A DNA stretch of 64,000 nucleotides, from assembly GCF_012271765.1 (NCBI RefSeq), contig NZ_VRKO01000013.1, positions 483,960 through 547,959 on the forward strand, written 5' to 3'. The translations under genes were made by a program, and so were the position numbers. The DNA is from Erwinia rhapontici (GTDB taxonomy: Bacteria; Pseudomonadota; Gammaproteobacteria; Enterobacterales; Enterobacteriaceae). Positions 20,139 to 28,033 of the stretch are shown here, one piece after another. The notes under the pieces were generated by a model that saw nothing but the letters and a program-made list of their open reading frames with translations, did no database searches and was not told the origin of the DNA. Position 1 is the first letter of the stretch. Each line of letters begins with the position of its first letter.

Positions 20139-21392
20139 GTGTCGAAGGCAACCGAGCAAGACGAAAAGTTAAAACGAGCGATAACAATATCAGTCATCTT
20201 CCACATTATTCTGGTGGCCGTGCTGGTATGGAGTTCGTTTGACGAAAACATCGACGCCAGCGGCGGTGGTGGCGGTAGCGATATTGATGCAGTCATGGTC
20301 GATCCTGGCGCGGTGGTAGAACAGTACAATCGTCAGCAAAATCAGCAGAGCGACAGCAAGCGTGCCGAGCAACAACGTCAGAAGCAGGCTAAACAGCAGG
20401 CGGAAGAGTTGCAGCAGAAACAGGCCGCAGAACAGCAAAGGCTGAAACAGATCGAGAAAGAACGTCTGCAGGCGCAGGAAGATGCCAAACAGCAGGCGGC
20501 AGAACAGGCCGCCGAGCAGAAGCAAGCCGCGGATGCGGCGAAGCAGGCACAGCAGGAGCAGAAACAGGCTGAAGCCGCCGCGGCAAAAGCCAAAGCCGAT
20601 GCGAAAGCCCAGGCGGATGCCCAGGCGAAGTCTGCTGCTGATGCACAGAAAAAAGCTGCAGAAGAAGCGAAAAAAGCGGCTGCTGATGCGAAGAAAGAAG
20701 CCGAAGCAGAAGCGAAACAGGCCGCTGCGGAAGCCGCTAAAGTGAAAGCGGCAGCGGATGCAAAAGCCAAAGCGACTGCTGAGGCAAAAGCGGCGGCGGA
20801 TGCGAAGGCTGCTGCTCAGGAAGCCAAAGCACAGGCGGCGGCTGAGGCGAAAGAAAAAGCAGCGGAAGAAGCCAAAGAGAAAGCGGCGACTGCTGCCAAA
20901 GAAAAAGCGGAAGCGGCTGCAAAAGCGAAAGCTGATGCCGCAGCGAAAGCCAAATCCGATGCCGCAGCCAAGAAGAAAGCAGCAGCTGAAGCCGCGAAAG
21001 AGTCGGGTGATGTCGGTGACTTACTGGGTGACCTGACCTCAGGTAAAAATGCGCCGAAGTCGGGTAACGCTGCTGGCGGCGGTGGTGCTGCGGGGCAGGG
21101 TACGCAGAAAAAATCGGGTGCATCCGGTGCTGCTATCGACAGTTACCTCGGACAGGTTAAAGGCGCGATTCAAAGTAAATTGTATAATGCGGATACTTTC
21201 GCCGGGCAAACCTGCGATATCCGCATCAAACTGGCTCCGGACGGGCTGCTGATTTCAGCGACGACGGCCGGTGGTGATGCTGCGCTCTGTCAGGCCGCGT
21301 TAAGTGCTGCTCGTACTGCTAAAATTCCAAAACCGCCTACCCAGGATGTCTGGCAGGCGGTGAAAGAAGCGACAGTCGAGTTTAAACTGTAA
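20139..21392 (+). CDS. tolA: cell envelope integrity inner-membrane protein TolA
   Basis: Spans the periplasm and transmits proton-motive force from TolQR to TolB/Pal at the outer membrane, acting in outer-membrane constriction at division. 417 residues, starting with GTG. Domain I is a membrane anchor (about residues 15-34). Domain II (about 60-290) is a long helix extremely rich in Ala, Lys, Glu and Gln. Domain III (about 320-417) is globular with two cysteines (GQTCDIRIKL and AALCQAALSAA) that probably form the conserved disulfide. The repetitive DNA of domain II produces long spurious frames on the other strand. Confidence 0.97.
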   Translation: MSKATEQDEKLKRAITISVIFHIILVAVLVWSSFDENIDASGGGGGSDIDAVMVDPGAVVEQYNRQQNQQSDSKRAEQQRQKQAKQQAEELQQKQAAEQQRLKQIEKERLQAQEDAKQQAAEQAAEQKQAADAAKQAQQEQKQAEAAAAKAKADAKAQADAQAKSAADAQKKAAEEAKKAAADAKKEAEAEAKQAAAEAAKVKAAADAKAKATAEAKAAADAKAAAQEAKAQAAAEAKEKAAEEAKEKAATAAKEKAEAAAKAKADAAAKAKSDAAAKKKAAAEAAKESGDVGDLLGDLTSGKNAPKSGNAAGGGGAAGQGTQKKSGASGAAIDSYLGQVKGAIQSKLYNADTFAGQTCDIRIKLAPDGLLISATTAGGDAALCQAALSAARTAKIPKPPTQDVWQAVKEATVEFKL

Positions 21393-22838: not shown

Positions 22839-23351
22839 ATGCAACTGAACAAAGTGCTGAAAGGCTTAATGCTGGCACTGCCAGTAATCGCAGTGGCTGC
22901 ATGTAGCTCTCATAAGAACAACAACAACGACCAGACTAACGGTCTTGGTGACGGTTCTAACAGCGGCATGAACAGCGGTAACATGTCTTCTGACGAGCAG
23001 GCACGTCTGCAGATGCAAGAACTGCAGAAAAACAACATCGTATACTTCGGTCTGGACAAGTATGACATCGCTTCTGACTTCGCTCAGATGCTGGATGCGC
23101 ACGCTAACTTCCTGCGTAGCAACCCATCATACAAAGTGACCGTAGAAGGTCATGCGGATGAGCGCGGTACACCTGAATACAACATCGCCCTGGGCGAACG
23201 TCGTGCTTCAGCTGTTAAAATGTACCTGCAGGGTAAAGGCGTTTCTGCTGACCAGATCTCTATCGTTTCTTACGGTAAAGAAAAACCTGCAGTACTGGGT
23301 CACGACGAATCAGCTTATGCTAAAAACCGTCGTGCAGTACTGGTTTACTAA
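22839..23351 (+). CDS. pal: peptidoglycan-associated outer-membrane lipoprotein Pal
   Basis: Outer-membrane lipoprotein that binds peptidoglycan and TolB. 170 residues with a lipobox VAAC at Cys22, a linker unusually rich in Asn, Gly and Ser (about 23-60, including HKNNNNDQ), and an OmpA-like C-terminal domain (about 65-170) with [22 protein letters not shown]. It follows tolB by 44 bases and precedes cpoB by 9. Confidence 0.98.
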
Positions 23352-23360
23352 GAGAATCAC

Positions 23361-24167
23361 ATGATTAGTAGCTTCAGAACTCACCTGTTGAGTCTGTCGT
23401 TACTGGTTGGCGTAGCGGCCCCCTGGGCCGCTAATGCCCAGGCAACAATCAGTAACGTTGGCTCCGGCTCGGTTGAAGACCGTGTCACTACACTTGAGCG
23501 TATTTCTAATGCTCAGGCGCAACTCCTCCAGCAACTTCAGCAGCAACTTTCCGAAACTCAAAATGATATTGACTCACTACGTGGTCAAATTCAGGAAAAC
23601 AGCTATCAGCTGAATCAGGTTGTGGAGCGTCAGAAAGGACTTTACCAGCAGATTGACAGTCTCAGCAGCGGTGGTGCAAACGCCGGTGCAGCGGCCGCGT
23701 CAGGTGCGGGTGCGGCAGCCGCCGATACGTCCTCTGACGGCAGCAATGCAGCGGCAGCAGCTCCTGCTGCCGCTGCTGCCCCGACCCAAAGTGGGGATGC
23801 GAATACCGATTACAATGCGGCAGTGGCGCTGGTACTGGAGAAAAAACAGTACGATCAGGCTATCGCAGCATTTCAGTCCTTTGTGAAGAAATACCCGGAT
23901 TCGACTTTTCAGCCTAACGCGAACTATTGGCTTGGTCAGTTGAATTACAACAAAGGCAAAAAAGACGATGCCGCGTTTTATTTCGCGACTGTTGTCAAAA
24001 ATTACCCAAAATCACCGAAGAGTGCAGATGCGCTGCTGAAGGTGGGGGTGATCATGCAGGAAAAAGGCGACAAGGCGAAAGCCAAAGCGGTCTATCAGCA
24101 GGTGGTCAAACTGTACCCTAACAGTGAAGCCGCAAAACAGGCACAAAAGCGCTCAGCGGCACTCTGA
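23361..24167 (+). CDS. cpoB: cell division coordinator CpoB
   Basis: Periplasmic protein that links the Tol machine to peptidoglycan synthesis by PBP1B at the division site. 268 residues: signal peptide about 1-27 (ending ANAQA), a coiled coil with many Gln residues (about 40-95), an Ala/Gly/Ser-rich linker (about 98-140), and TPR repeats in the C-terminal half (DYNAAVALVLEKKQYDQAI, PNANYWLGQLNYNKG). Last gene of the Tol-Pal cluster, ahead of the tRNA genes as in E. coli. Confidence 0.96.
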   Translation: MISSFRTHLLSLSLLVGVAAPWAANAQATISNVGSGSVEDRVTTLERISNAQAQLLQQLQQQLSETQNDIDSLRGQIQENSYQLNQVVERQKGLYQQIDSLSSGGANAGAAAASGAGAAAADTSSDGSNAAAAAPAAAAAPTQSGDANTDYNAAVALVLEKKQYDQAIAAFQSFVKKYPDSTFQPNANYWLGQLNYNKGKKDDAAFYFATVVKNYPKSPKSADALLKVGVIMQEKGDKAKAKAVYQQVVKLYPNSEAAKQAQKRSAAL

Positions 24168-24254
24168 TTGGCGTGATTGAGCTCATTTTAGCCTGAAATA
24201 TGGTCTTACCGCGTGAAAGCTAAGCAGTTGAACAACTTATCCTGAAATAGTGGT

Positions 24255-24282
24255 TGCGCTGGAAATTCAAATCAGTAATATA
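24255..24282 (+). promoter_or_regulatory. candidate promoter of the Lys/Val tRNA operon
   Basis: TTGCGC (24255-24260), a 16-base spacer and TAATAT (24277-24282), followed by the GC-rich stretch GCCGCCG expected of a stringently controlled stable-RNA promoter. It lies about 50 bases before the first tRNA. Confidence 0.7.
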
Positions 24283-24331
24283 TGCCGCCGTTGCCGGGGG
24301 ATATGTTAAGAGACGCCAGCAGCACAAAAGT

Positions 24332-24407
24332 GGGTCGTTAGCTCAGTTGGTAGAGCAGTTGACTTTTAATCAATTGGTCGCAGGTTCGAATCCTGCACGA
24401 CCCACCA
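24332..24407 (+). tRNA. tRNA-Lys (anticodon UUU), copy 1
   Basis: 76 bases with an encoded CCA, cloverleaf arms intact (acceptor GGGTCGT/ACGACCC), anticodon TTT in the loop CTTTTAA, and T arm GCAGGTTCGAATCCTGC. First of eight tRNAs. Confidence 0.98.
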
Positions 24408-24532
24408 CTATTAAGTTTTAAACGGTGTAAACCGTGAAGGATGAGAACCGTAAAGGTTCGAGTCGAGCGAAAGCGAGACAACGTTGCTTCAGCAACGGCC
24501 CGTAGGGCGAAGTCATCCTGCACCACCCACCA
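24408..24532 (+). repeat. tRNA-Lys 3'-end-containing spacer repeat, copy A
   Basis: A 125-base unit that begins after the first tRNA and ends in an imperfect copy of the tRNA-Lys 3' end (CATCCTGCACCACCCACCA, one base changed). The sequence that follows the false CCA (ATTAAGTTTTAAAACGGTG) repeats the sequence that follows the genuine CCA, as expected of a duplicated unit. It also holds T-arm-like AGGTTCGAGTC. Confidence 0.85.
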
Positions 24533-24579
24533 GTATTAAGTTTTAAAACGGTGTAAACCGTGCTTTGAAGTTTCGATAT

Positions 24580-24655
24580 GGGTGATTAGCTCAGTTGGTA
24601 GAGCATCTCCTTTACACGGAGGGGGTCGGCGGTTCGAGCCCGTCATCACCCACCA
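24580..24655 (+). tRNA. tRNA-Val (anticodon UAC), copy 1
   Basis: 76 bases with encoded CCA, acceptor GGGTGAT/ATCACCC, anticodon TAC in CTTTACACG, T arm GGCGGTTCGAGCCCGTC. Four bases before the next tRNA-Lys. Confidence 0.98.
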
Positions 24656-24659
24656 TATC

Positions 24660-24735
24660 GGGTCGTTAGCTCAGTTGGTAGAGCAGTTGACTTTTAATCA
24701 ATTGGTCGCAGGTTCGAATCCTGCACGACCCACCA
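24660..24735 (+). tRNA. tRNA-Lys (UUU), copy 2
   Basis: Identical in sequence to copy 1. First member of a Lys-Val-Lys block that recurs exactly 440 bases downstream. Confidence 0.98.
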
Positions 24736-24772
24736 TCTCTTAAGAGATAAACATGCGTAGCAGTTCTGATAT

Positions 24773-24848
24773 GGGTGATTAGCTCAGTTGGTAGAGCATC
24801 TCCTTTACACGGAGGGGGTCGGCGGTTCGAGCCCGTCATCACCCACCA
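24773..24848 (+). tRNA. tRNA-Val (UAC), copy 2
   Basis: Identical to Val copy 1. The 37-base spacer before it (24736-24772, with the hairpin CATCTCTTAAGAGATAA) is repeated before Val copy 3. Confidence 0.98.
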
Positions 24849-24852
24849 TATC

Positions 24853-24928
24853 GGGTCGTTAGCTCAGTTGGTAGAGCAGTTGACTTTTAATCAATTGGTC
24901 GCAGGTTCGAATCCTGCACGACCCACCA
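24853..24928 (+). tRNA. tRNA-Lys (UUU), copy 3
   Basis: Identical to the other Lys copies, four bases after Val copy 2. Confidence 0.98.
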
Positions 24929-25054
24929 CTTCAAAGTCGTAAGCGGTGTAAACCGTGAAGGATGAGAACCGTAAAAGGTTCGAGTCGAGCGAAAGCGAGA
25001 CAACGTTGCTTCAGCAACGGCCCGAAGGGCGAAGTCATCCTGCACGACCCACCA
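24929..25054 (+). repeat. tRNA-Lys 3'-end-containing spacer repeat, copy B
   Basis: A 126-base unit nearly identical to copy A, ending in a perfect 18-base copy of the tRNA-Lys 3' end (ATCCTGCACGACCCACCA). The CTTCAAAGT that follows again echoes the bases after the genuine CCA. Confidence 0.87.
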
Positions 25055-25099
25055 CTTCAAAGTAGTCAGTTATAGCGTAGTCCAGTTTTACCGCATTGC

Positions 25100-25175
25100 G
25101 GGTCGTTAGCTCAGTTGGTAGAGCAGTTGACTTTTAATCAATTGGTCGCAGGTTCGAATCCTGCACGACCCACCA
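25100..25175 (+). tRNA. tRNA-Lys (UUU), copy 4
   Basis: Identical to the other Lys copies; begins the second Lys-Val-Lys block (440 bases after copy 2). Confidence 0.98.
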
Positions 25176-25212
25176 TCTCTTAAGAGATAAACATGCGTAG
25201 CAGTTCTGATAT

Positions 25213-25288
25213 GGGTGATTAGCTCAGTTGGTAGAGCATCTCCTTTACACGGAGGGGGTCGGCGGTTCGAGCCCGTCATCACCCACCA
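25213..25288 (+). tRNA. tRNA-Val (UAC), copy 3
   Basis: Identical to the other Val copies, 440 bases after copy 2. Confidence 0.98.
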
Positions 25289-25292
25289 TATC

Positions 25293-25368
25293 GGGTCGTT
25301 AGCTCAGTTGGTAGAGCAGTTGACTTTTAATCAATTGGTCGCAGGTTCGAATCCTGCACGACCCACCA
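25293..25368 (+). tRNA. tRNA-Lys (UUU), copy 5
   Basis: Last tRNA of the operon, identical to the others. Directly followed by three 156-base repeats, each ending with a copy of its own 3' end. Confidence 0.98.
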
Positions 25369-25375
25369 GTGTAAG

Positions 25376-25399
25376 AAGGCGCCCTAAAGGCGCCTTTTT
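25376..25399 (+). terminator. terminator of the tRNA operon, first copy
   Basis: AAGGCGCC stem, CTAA loop, GGCGCCTT stem and a T5 run, eight bases after the last tRNA. Confidence 0.92.
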
Positions 25400-25531
25400 G
25401 CTGTCTGCGATTCGTGTAGGGTGAGAACCTGCAGCAGGTTCGAGTCGAACGCAGTGAGACAGCGTTGCCAAAGGCAACGACCCGGAGGGCGAGGCGAAGC
25501 CGAGTCATCCTGCACGACCCACCAATGTAAG

Positions 25532-25555
25532 AAGGCGCCCTAAAGGCGCCTTTTT
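25532..25555 (+). terminator. repeat-borne terminator, second copy
   Basis: Identical to the first copy, 156 bases downstream. Confidence 0.9.
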
Positions 25556-25687
25556 GCTGTCTGCGATTCGGGCAGTATGAGAACCTGCAGCAGGTTCGAG
25601 TCGAACGTAGTGAGACAGCGTTGCCGAAGGCAACGACCCGGAGGGCGAGGCAAAGCCGAGTCATCCTGCACGACCCACCAATGTAAG

Positions 25688-25711
25688 AAGGCGCCCTAAA
25701 GGCGCCTTTTT
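25688..25711 (+). terminator. repeat-borne terminator, third copy
   Basis: Identical stem, loop and T-run, 156 bases beyond the second copy. Confidence 0.9.
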
Positions 25712-25843
25712 GCTGTCTGCGATTCGGGCAGTATGAGAACCTGCAGCAGGTTCGAGTCGAACGCAGTGAGACAGCGTTGCCAAAGGCAACGACCCGGAGG
25801 GCGAGGCGAAGCCGAGTCATCCTGCACGACCCACCAGTGTAAG

Positions 25844-25867
25844 AAGGCGCCCTAAAGGCGCCTTTTT
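25844..25867 (+). terminator. repeat-borne terminator, fourth copy
   Basis: Identical element in the partial last unit. It faces the end of the convergent ada-alkA gene 38 bases away and could stop transcription in both directions. Confidence 0.9.
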
Positions 25868-25904
25868 GCTGTCTGCGATTTGAGTGTCCGGTCGCCCCGT
25901 TCCT

Positions 25905-27362
25905 TTATACCAATTTTCCACTGTGCCAGATATGCATCACCGCATAGCTGCGCCACGGACGCCACGCCTGTGAACACTCCTCCGCCTGTTTAACGCTAAG
26001 ACCACCGAGATTATTGCGTACCACAATATCTCCCGCCGGAAACGCGTCAGGCCAGCGTAATGCGCGCATAGCGAGGTATTTCGCCGTCCAGTCACCAATG
26101 CCAGGCAAGGCTAACAGTTGTGCAATCGTATCGTCAGGATTGCTGACGATATCCAGTTGCAGTTTCTCCAGAGCACACTGTTCCGCCAACGCCAGGATAC
26201 AGCGGGTGCGGGCACTGACAATCCCCAGGCGGGCAATCTCATCCACACTGCATTGCGCCACCCGGGCTGGCAGGGGAGAAAGATGTGTCAGTTCGGCAAA
26301 GGGCGTGGCGATCTCTTCTCCCAGTGCGGTGGCGAAGCGTCCACCCAATGTGGCAGCGGCTTTCACTGTGATCTGCTGGCCGAGAATCGCACGCACGGCC
26401 ATCTCAAAACCGTCGAACGCACCGGGAACCCGTAATCCGGGATGCGCCAGCACCGAGGCGTGCAACAACGGGTCCTGTCCCAGGTGCTCTGCAATCAGGT
26501 CAGGGCGGGCATTCAGGTCAAACAGATTTCTCAGTCGGCGCAGCAGCACAGGCAAAACGGCATTCAGTGAATGTGTGAACTCAACCTGCAGCATATTTTT
26601 CTCTGCCTGCTGCGTCACTCTTATCCATCCATAATGCGGCCCCAGACGCACGGTACGGGCATAACTGACATCATCTACACTCTCTACGCCCAGCAGCGCA
26701 CGACGGCGCAGGAAGGCCAGCATCGCCTCCCAGTCATAAGGAGGGCGATAGCTGAGCTGCAATGTTGACGTGTCGTTGCTGTCGATGCCTCCTTCTCTGA
26801 TCTTCATGTTCTTACGCAAATGCGAAGGGGGCATACGATACTGGCTGCTGAACGCAGCGTTAAAACGACGCAGGCTGGAAAACCCACTGGCAAACGCAAT
26901 TTGCGTGACGGGCAAATGGGTTTCGCTCAATAACTGTTTAGCCAGCAGCAATCGCCGGGTTTGGCGTAACTCCTGTGGCGAAACGCCCAGCTCTTTATGA
27001 ACAATGCGGCGAAGTTGACGCAGACTGAGATGAAAACTGGCAGCAATCTCTTCCAGGCTGTCGACCTGCTCAATCATCCCTTCATCAATACGCTGCATCA
27101 ACCGTTCGGCAATACGCTGACTGTGATCGACAGGCGCATGGCCGGGAGCCAGCTCGGGTCTGCAACGGAGGCAGGGCCGAAAGGTGGCTTTTTCTGCCGC
27201 TTCAGCGCTGTCGAAAAACAGGCAGTTCTCCGCACGTGGTGCCTTCACCGGGCAAACGGGACGACAATAAATGCCGGTTGAGGTCACACCCACGTAGAAT
27301 ATGCCGTCAAAACGCGCATCGCGTGAGGTGAGGGCGCGGTAAGCTGAGACTGGGTCAATCAT
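25905..27362 (-). CDS. Ada-type methyl-phosphotriester sensor fused to AlkA DNA-3-methyladenine glycosylase
   Basis: A 485-residue fusion linking adaptive-response regulation to base-excision repair. Domains in order: Ada zinc-binding domain (about 1-75) with Cys33, Cys37, Cys64 and Cys67 in IYCRPVCP and FRPCLRCRPE; AraC-type DNA-binding domain (about 85-185); AlkA N-terminal domain (about 200-290); and HhH-GPD glycosylase domain (about 300-480) with LPGIGDWTAKYLAMRA and a probable catalytic Asp445 in PAGDIVVRN. The ATG at 27362 has an AGGA site; a GTG 27 bases earlier is possible but lacks one. There is no O6-methyltransferase domain; that activity is in the divergent ogt gene. Confidence 0.93.
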   Translation of the reverse strand: MIDPVSAYRALTSRDARFDGIFYVGVTSTGIYCRPVCPVKAPRAENCLFFDSAEAAEKATFRPCLRCRPELAPGHAPVDHSQRIAERLMQRIDEGMIEQVDSLEEIAASFHLSLRQLRRIVHKELGVSPQELRQTRRLLLAKQLLSETHLPVTQIAFASGFSSLRRFNAAFSSQYRMPPSHLRKNMKIREGGIDSNDTSTLQLSYRPPYDWEAMLAFLRRRALLGVESVDDVSYARTVRLGPHYGWIRVTQQAEKNMLQVEFTHSLNAVLPVLLRRLRNLFDLNARPDLIAEHLGQDPLLHASVLAHPGLRVPGAFDGFEMAVRAILGQQITVKAAATLGGRFATALGEEIATPFAELTHLSPLPARVAQCSVDEIARLGIVSARTRCILALAEQCALEKLQLDIVSNPDDTIAQLLALPGIGDWTAKYLAMRALRWPDAFPAGDIVVRNNLGGLSVKQAEECSQAWRPWRSYAVMHIWHSGKLV

Positions 27363-27529
27363 CGTTATGTCCTGTCGCACAGAATTCACTTCAGATTAGG
27401 TGTTTAGCGCATCCAGTACTCGCCGTTTGCGGACACAACATTATTCTGTACTGATGTCCGAAAACGGCCAGTGATATGCCATCCCCAGGGCATAATAGCG
27501 CGTACCCCAGACAGAGAAGGAGAGGGAAG
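27363..27529. promoter_or_regulatory. divergent promoter region between ada-alkA and ogt
   Basis: A 167-base gap shared by two alkylation-repair genes. TTTAGCGCA at 27403-27411 resembles the GCGCA core of an Ada box, but the match is partial. I could not place -35/-10 elements with confidence. Confidence 0.4.
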
Positions 27530-28033
27530 ATGGCTTTCTACTATAAAATGATGCAATCCCCGGTTGGTGAGTTGAAACTGGTGGCAAGCGAACAGGGTCT
27601 CGCCGCTATTCTGTGGGAAAATGATGATCCCAAACGTGTGCGCTTCAGGCCACAGCTGGAAGACACCCACAACGCAACCTTGCTCGAAGCCGAACGGCAG
27701 CTGCGCGAATATTTTGCCGGCCATCGCCAGCAGTTCAGCTTGCCGCTGGATTTCATCGGCACGACGTTCCAGAAGCAGGTCTGGGCGGCGTTGATCACCA
27801 TCCCCTTTGGTGAAACGCGCAGCTACGGGGAAATCGCCCACCAGATCGGCAACCCCAACTCTGTTCGTGCAGTGGGCGCAGCCAATGGAAAAAATCCACT
27901 CTCAATTATTGCCCCTTGCCACCGGGTGATTGGCGCCAATGGTAAACTGACCGGATTTGCCGGTGGCCTGGCAGCCAAAGCCTTTTTACTGCGTCTGGAA
28001 GGGGGGCAGTTGTGGGCGGAGGAGTCTCTTTGA
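27530..28033 (+). CDS. ogt: methylated-DNA--[protein]-cysteine S-methyltransferase
   Basis: Suicide repair protein that transfers the methyl group from O6-methylguanine to its own cysteine. 167 residues from the ATG at 27530, which follows GAAGGAGAGGGAAG; a longer frame begins upstream without a ribosome site. The active-site motif IAPCHRVIGANGKLTGFAGGL and the DNA-binding segment GETRSYGEIAHQIGNPNSVRAVGAA are intact. It lacks the Ada sensor domains and so is Ogt-like. Its divergent neighbour carries the sensor and glycosylase domains, so the pair together reproduce much of the classical Ada response. Confidence 0.93.
   Translation: MAFYYKMMQSPVGELKLVASEQGLAAILWENDDPKRVRFRPQLEDTHNATLLEAERQLREYFAGHRQQFSLPLDFIGTTFQKQVWAALITIPFGETRSYGEIAHQIGNPNSVRAVGAANGKNPLSIIAPCHRVIGANGKLTGFAGGLAAKAFLLRLEGGQLWAEESL

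Follow-up and report, generated by a model that had tools for sequence, protein, structure and literature searches.

According to the part of PMC8144298 available to us, E. coli possesses 22 tRNA-linked repeats at ten loci, a count credited there to Rudd 1999, and the 3'-terminal 18-19 bases of these repeats are identical to the terminus of the tRNA or rRNA that precedes them. In the same part of the paper, their former role in amino acid starvation is described as withdrawn, and no function was known as of 2021. Behind tyrT of E. coli K-12, four matches to the Rfam family RF00391 (RtT) are found, with scores from 133 to 138 bits. Beside E. coli, RNAs of the RtT family were detected in Actinobacillus, and a role in the stringent response is still cited in the accessible text of that study (PMC4986893). 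Additionally, rtT-like BIMEs are mentioned in the accessible text of PMC2965389.

The window analysed here is a stretch of 64,000 nucleotides from Erwinia rhapontici (NZ_VRKO01000013.1, positions 483,960 to 547,959). It contains five matches to RF00391 with scores from 85.2 to 94.9 bits. All five copies exceed the gathering score of 45, and the label "rtT-like", which had been given in a sequence-only reading of this DNA, can therefore be put more strongly. The copies are positioned within or behind a tRNA cluster (ARAGORN, Rfam), as is the rule for tRNA-linked repeats. The RtT array is not new in kind, and its family is already known in E. coli under this name. The features of the locus are as follows:

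24332-25368: tRNA cluster with five tRNA-Lys and three tRNA-Val genes (ARAGORN)
24408-24532, plus strand: in-cluster RtT copy 3' of the first tRNA-Lys, tail with one change (RF00391 24420-24532, 85.2 bits)
24929-25054, plus strand: in-cluster RtT copy 3' of the third tRNA-Lys, exact tail at 25037 (RF00391 24941-25054, 87.1 bits)
25293-25368, plus strand: last tRNA-Lys (TTT), source of the copied 3' end (ARAGORN, Rfam tRNA)
25369-25524, plus strand: RtT unit 1 with terminator spacer, RtT body and tail copy at 25507-25524 (RF00391 25400-25524, 94.9 bits; fold)
25525-25680, plus strand: RtT unit 2, tail at 25663-25680, closing helix disturbed by substitutions (RF00391 25556-25680, 90.4 bits; non-standard pairs; closing helix open in best fold)
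25681-25836, plus strand: RtT unit 3, tail at 25819-25836, closing helix open in best fold (RF00391 25712-25836, 90.3 bits; fold)
25837-25880, plus strand: remnant of 44 bases, fourth copy of the terminator spacer
25376-25399, 25532-25555, 25688-25711 and 25844-25867, plus strand: four identical terminator hairpins (sequence positions; hairpin in the fold of unit 1)
25905-27389, minus strand: fused Ada-type regulator/AlkA-type glycosylase, 494 amino acids, convergent with the tRNA cluster
within 25905-28033, plus strand: O6-methylguanine methyltransferase, 185 amino acids

The array extends from 25351 to 25880 with a period of 156 bases, 3.4 copies, 96% matches and a score of 997 (Tandem Repeats Finder). 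Coordinates and description had thus been given correctly when three full 156-base units and a partial one were reported behind the last tRNA-Lys. In pairwise comparisons of the full units, 8, 5 and 3 of the 156 positions are different. The terminal 18 bases of the tRNA-Lys occur at nine places in the window, namely in the five tRNA-Lys genes, in all three array units (25507, 25663 and 25819) and in one of the two in-cluster copies (25037), the tail of the remaining copy having one change. It was also correctly recognised that every unit closes with these 18 bases, and an exact tail of this length closing each of the 156-base units greatly exceeds what chance would give. The claim of an identical terminator per unit is supported by a core of 22 bases, which is identical at the starts 25378, 25534, 25690 and 25846, and by a hairpin with 13 pairs in the fold of unit 1, though a simple consensus scan for terminators gave no hit within 24160-25950; the probable reason is that the T run can be drawn into the stem. 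The array is a real feature, rightly described, and represents a further RtT member at an already known position. The two in-cluster RtT copies (24420-24532 and 24941-25054) were absent from the sequence-only reading. The interest lies in patterns across the RtT family and not in the array at this locus; the comparison yields testable statements concerning a six-helix junction that closes on the copy of the tRNA end, the way in which the arm tracks the tRNA, natural strains whose sites are exactly empty, and conversion between separate loci.

Like the RF00391 rtT of E. coli tyrT, the window array consists of tandem copies, each ending in the 3' end of the adjacent tRNA. It differs in its tail, which is a Lys tail instead of a Tyr tail, in its period (156 versus 178 bases in K-12) and in the intrinsic terminator of its spacer. 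Terminator-like hairpins were detected in the spacers of 34 of 63 Lys units, 14 of 14 Pro-CGG units, 9 of 11 Pro-TGG units and all 11 Ser units, and in none of the 120 Tyr units. Terminators within units are consequently not peculiar to the window, as Pro and Ser units hold them too. The contrast with E. coli that had been drawn from another tRNA and from terminators in the units fails also for the Lys type, since K-12 shows the order terminator, RtT, tail, terminator behind lysQ (RtT 46.7 bits). With this E. coli repeat the array shares the locus, the tRNA and the order of elements. The body has diverged, as the score of the K-12 copy indicates, the window contains three units versus one in K-12 (three in EcPNK004), and the downstream gene is of the Ada/AlkA type instead of nadA. 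The gene pair at 25905-28033 is situated between the tRNA cluster and nadA, an interval that holds nothing in K-12. The Ada/AlkA-type fusion and the O6-methylguanine methyltransferase are likely an alkylation-repair pair, and the window terminators separate the tRNA cluster from the convergent Ada/AlkA-type gene.

Other E. coli strains are annotated with arrays of "RtT sRNA", with four copies at lysV and three at lysQ. RefSeq tags the copies at E. coli Lys loci as "RtT sRNA, processed from tyrT transcript", a label that must be wrong for copies in tRNA-Lys operons, and in the MG1655 record NC_000913.3 the RtT copies at the lysT locus are unlabelled. At proM of K-12, no tail copy was found. RrA, RrB and RrF of the E. 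coli rRNA operons resemble the array in having a copied RNA end between two terminators, and the hairpins AACGTTGC...GCAACG and CCCGGAGGG are common to RrB and the RtT body. They differ in that they copy the 5S end, with no mirror arm (described below) evident by eye, and binding of CsrA is said to separate this group in the available part of PMC8144298.

In the same genome, 11 matches to RF00391 (10 over the cut-off) were identified at five sites, located behind Lys tRNAs (twice) and behind Tyr, Pro and Ser tRNAs, the Ser match remaining below the cut-off with 35 bits. The Pro site has three tandem copies, the last one with a degenerate tail. A REP- or BIME-type element was considered and rejected, as all 11 matches are placed 3' of a tRNA and no dispersed copies away from tRNA genes were found among them. 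RtT matches occur in 18 of 19 genomes of the genus (own genome included) and in 1 of 12 genomes from other families of the order. Within the taxonomic family, a match was obtained in 113 of the 198 genomes sampled, in 108 of them over the cut-off; RtT elements are thus present in more than half of these genomes. The 2021 paper knows no function for tRNA-linked repeats.

The tails were surveyed in 172 sequences, comprising 171 loci chosen for RtT matches (K-12 tRNA loci apart; many overlapping) and the window, and at least 15 of 17 bases were required for a tail copy. This yielded 175 non-identical sets of tail copies 3' of a tRNA (Tyr 93, Lys 54, Pro 16, Ser 9, Arg 3). The tail tracks the variants of the tRNA, with TCCTGC or TCCCGC at Lys tRNAs and TCCTTCCCCC, TCCTTCTCCC or TCCAGCCCCC at Tyr tRNAs. 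At its 5' start, the unit body carries the reverse complement of the T-arm and acceptor 3' strand of its own tRNA, in which TTCGA is mostly changed to TGAGA. Such a mirror arm, which is able to pair with the tail copy, is present in the units of Tyr, Lys, Pro and Ser tRNAs. Score and length thresholds for the arm were passed by 219 of 238 units; among the 19 that failed are four short copies from K-12 and the three Arg units, in which tails are present but the score used revealed no mirror arm. In the open literature searched, no description of the mirror arm was found; papers of 1978, 1991, 1994 and 1999 are outside that scope and may describe it.

For a permutation of arms and tails, the arm was anchored by a motif independent of the tRNA, whereby 166 of 228 units were kept and 62 dropped. 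Arms paired with their own tail type with a score of 8.5, versus 6.4 (sd 0.38) with permuted tails; this was reached in 0 of 20,000 permutations, a count that does not translate into a probability because the tRNA types are related. The own tail was the best or tied for the arm in 6 of 11 types. Among the nine units with the Tyr tail CCTTCT, eight have the matching arm and one has the old arm; the Tyr tail CCTTCC (106 units) is combined with the old arm in 80 units, with neither in 25 and with the new arm in one. The matching G is found in all four units with the Lys tail CCCGC, and the 60 units with CCTGC have A (45), G (7) or neither (8). Inside a tRNA type, the arm thus follows changes of the tail.

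The structure was modelled on an alignment (A1) of 57 units of the Tyr, Lys and Pro type, from which Arg and Ser units were omitted, the latter for an extra stem. At the level of sequence, the comparison shows a body closed by the predicted helix P1, in which the 3' strand is the copy of the tRNA end and the 5' arm mirrors the same end. In window unit 1, P1 is predicted between 25413-25424 and 25505-25516. In the six-helix model, 86.6% of the cells are paired versus 77.5% after shuffling, a percentage that is partly circular because the model was drawn from the folds and sequences of A1 itself. Furthermore, 218 cells are changed on both sides (74 shuffled), and the covariation score is 0.260 versus 0.117 shuffled and 0.049-0.086 when the model was slid. 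On two of the five measures the shuffles were almost as good, with 23 pairs showing a double change versus 18.5 (reached by 8 of 500 shuffles) and 61 further pair types versus 57.3 (reached by 58 of 500).

The weakest of the six helices is P1 (78.1% paired), for which some rows of A1 need a shifted register. Tandem G.A mismatches occur in P3 in 55 of 57 rows and at the two places in P6 in 46 and 44 of 57 rows. The pair closing the mismatches of P6 is C-G in 40 rows and U-A in 16, with one gap and no mismatch. The loop of P5 reads C-GNA-G in 49 of 57 rows. When the Rfam structure of RF00391 was mapped on A1, P1 and P4 proved to be common to both models and hold in the family. A double change was found in none of the 10 inner pairs of the Rfam structure in these 57 sequences; in the alternative inner helices it was found in 1 of 7 (P2), 4 of 5 (P3) and 5 of 6 pairs (P6). 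The predicted six-helix junction has more compensatory changes than the inner helices of Rfam, and the structure given in RF00391 may have to be replaced. Of the window copies, unit 1 and the two inside the cluster fold according to the six-helix model, but the latter two are devoid of P6. Units 2 and 3 have substitutions in P1, which is open in their best fold.

A comparison of repeat numbers among strains, which had been suggested together with the first description of the array, revealed variation at the lysT, lysQ and lysV loci of E. coli. For the lysT locus nine records were used, two of them MG1655 or a derivative; 503025 has fewer tRNA genes and was excluded from the gap comparison. In K-12, an RtT is located behind each of five tRNA-Lys genes at this locus. 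For four of these five positions, strains with an empty site exist, whose gap is the K-12 sequence after the tail, in the same length and with 0-5 mismatches. At the fifth position, behind lysQ, exact matching failed; the annotated distance to nadA is 277 bases in ET5, 30EVA2, Ecol_AZ146 and 23555 and 432 bases in K-12, which differs by one unit minus one base. ET5 and 30EVA2 have one full-length gap without an exact tail. Behind lysQ, three tail copies are present in EcPNK004 and two in SW070910; at lysV, four RtTs are present in EcPF20 and one each in AH65 and UCPROB-002. As far as these records go, the strains differ in their units by single steps, each with the length of one tail-to-tail period. 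In Ecol_AZ146 and 23555 no exact tail copy exists anywhere in the lysT locus, so that the units are dispensable there. These two strains are natural RtT-empty strains at this locus.

Exchange between loci was analysed in five genomes of the genus with units at both tRNA-Lys loci, the loci being distinguished by the flanks downstream. Identity between units at the two loci within a genome is 96.9%, versus 84.3 and 84.5% for the same locus across genomes. The true pairing of genomes was the best of 120 permutations for the body and for the terminator spacer alike, and the result holds in all five genomes. Likeness of the flanks 3' of the units extends over at most 47 bases in four genomes and over 149 in the fifth. 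Since the units at two loci of one genome are closer to each other than orthologues, units were exchanged between loci of the same tRNA. Exchange of bodies between RtTs of different tRNA types in one genome was unsupported in four type pairs; nearest came Lys-Tyr, where 256 of 5000 permutations were at or above the observed value.

For the way these elements work, we propose a co-transcribed 3'-trailer module, which closes on the copied tRNA end and is multiplied and homogenised by recombination between the copied ends; in our judgement this proposal has an even chance of being right. RtT units would ride the tRNA transcript as a 3' trailer. The in-cluster copies would be made whenever the operon is transcribed through, and the array copies only via read-through of terminators. 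Because the in-cluster copies lie between tRNA genes, they share a transcript with the tRNAs behind them, provided that the cluster forms a single operon, and among the window set they are most likely the ones to be transcribed. During synthesis, P1 may capture the copied tRNA end and thereby reduce its competition with the true end. The copied CCA end might be the processing end of the released RNA, and the RefSeq annotation of K-12 rttR has its 3' end at the copied CCA. The tandem array with its serial terminators is probably mainly a product of recombination between identical tails. A simple account of the serial terminators is that they are passengers inside the duplicated unit; they might provide fail-safe termination ahead of the convergent Ada/AlkA-type gene. 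By analogy to RrB in rrnB, as described in the accessible part of PMC8144298, a small RNA formed by read-through is plausible.

In the folding model at equilibrium, the 5' acceptor strand of the tRNA pairs with the tail copy rather than with the true end. An arm acting as an insulator at equilibrium was rejected, because the tail remained paired with the acceptor strand when the arm was shuffled (12 units a type). From the intact to the shuffled arm, acceptor-tail pairing went from 0.91 to 0.95 (Tyr), from 0.84 to 0.78 (Lys) and from 0.91 to 0.91 (Pro), and pairing of the acceptor with the true tRNA end from 0.00 to 0.01-0.13, with 12 units a type in each case. As arm shuffling hardly alters this equilibrium, the lock, if any, must act by the order of synthesis. 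The predicted damage of P1 in array units 2 and 3 speaks against a P1 lock, and the dispensability of the units in two E. coli strains likewise counts against the proposed module.

The same damage would be expected if the repeats were a neutral or selfish by-product, in which identical tails lead to duplication, deletion and conversion, and hairpins are maintained by templated correction of imperfect palindromes and not by use. The dispensability and polymorphism of RtT in E. coli and the conversion between tRNA-Lys loci fit this explanation, which we regard as possible, if rather unlikely. Templated correction, however, should erase tandem G.A mismatches. In P3 they persist in nearly all rows of A1, and in P6 their closing pair is either C-G or U-A and never mismatched.

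The hairpins shared by the RtT body and RrB are consistent with a trans-acting or protein-binding small RNA made together with the tRNA operon, as was proposed for RrA, RrB and RrF of the rRNA operons. RrB sits between two terminators, is processed and binds Hfq and CsrA according to the available part of PMC8144298, and the detection of RtT-family RNAs in Actinobacillus (PMC4986893, accessible text) points in the same direction. Nevertheless, such a function is doubtful for the RtT units, as CsrA prediction scores are below 0.01 for 19 tRNA-operon members in the former source, where the starvation role is also withdrawn, though PMC4986893 still cites the stringent response.

The equilibrium folds described above could also reflect a bistable pre-tRNA, in which the arm of the unit would invade the 3' arm of the tRNA and the tail copy would replace it; this seems improbable to us. 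In detail, the arm is approximately the reverse complement of the T-arm and acceptor 3' strand, and pairing of the 5' acceptor strand with the tail copy would result in a chimeric tRNA-like fold with a second CCA end, which we hold to be equally improbable. If true, such a switch could gate the tRNA output after transcription. Folding a unit together with its own tRNA gains a median of 6.7-10.6 kcal/mol, with 81 of 86 units below -3 and medians of 0.0 to -5.2 with tRNAs of other types, and window unit 1 gains 9.1 kcal/mol. However, 41 of 86 controls with other types are also below -3, the in-cluster copies gain only 0.0 and 3.2 kcal/mol, and acceptor-tail pairing persists after arm shuffling. 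As the energy model ignores tertiary contacts, modification and the order of synthesis, the gain in joint folding would be either an artefact, for lack of tRNA tertiary structure and order of synthesis in the model, or a real switch.

Decoys for CCA-dependent enzymes had been suggested in the sequence-only reading; released RNAs with a tRNA 3' end and CCA would then titrate tRNA 3'-processing or CCA-adding enzymes. The exact tRNA tails with CCA would suit this purpose, but P1 pairs a part of the tail and leaves its last 7-9 bases single in the family model, unlike a tRNA acceptor, and the array copies are placed behind terminators, so that we consider a decoy function very improbable. A coding function of the unit for a small basic peptide of the Tpr kind is hardly conceivable, although tpr is annotated inside K-12 rttR, since the ATGAGA start is present in only 69 of 122 Tyr and 18 of 66 Lys units, the commonest closed frame has 5 codons (30 Tyr units) and the frame is not kept.

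Beside the RtT copies, the start of cpoB (23252-23390) matches the Rfam CpoB/ybgF thermometer with 135.6 bits. Just 5' of tolB, short in-frame-looking repeats with lysine- and alanine-rich codons were detected at 20634-20968, which we presume to be the stalk region of tolA.
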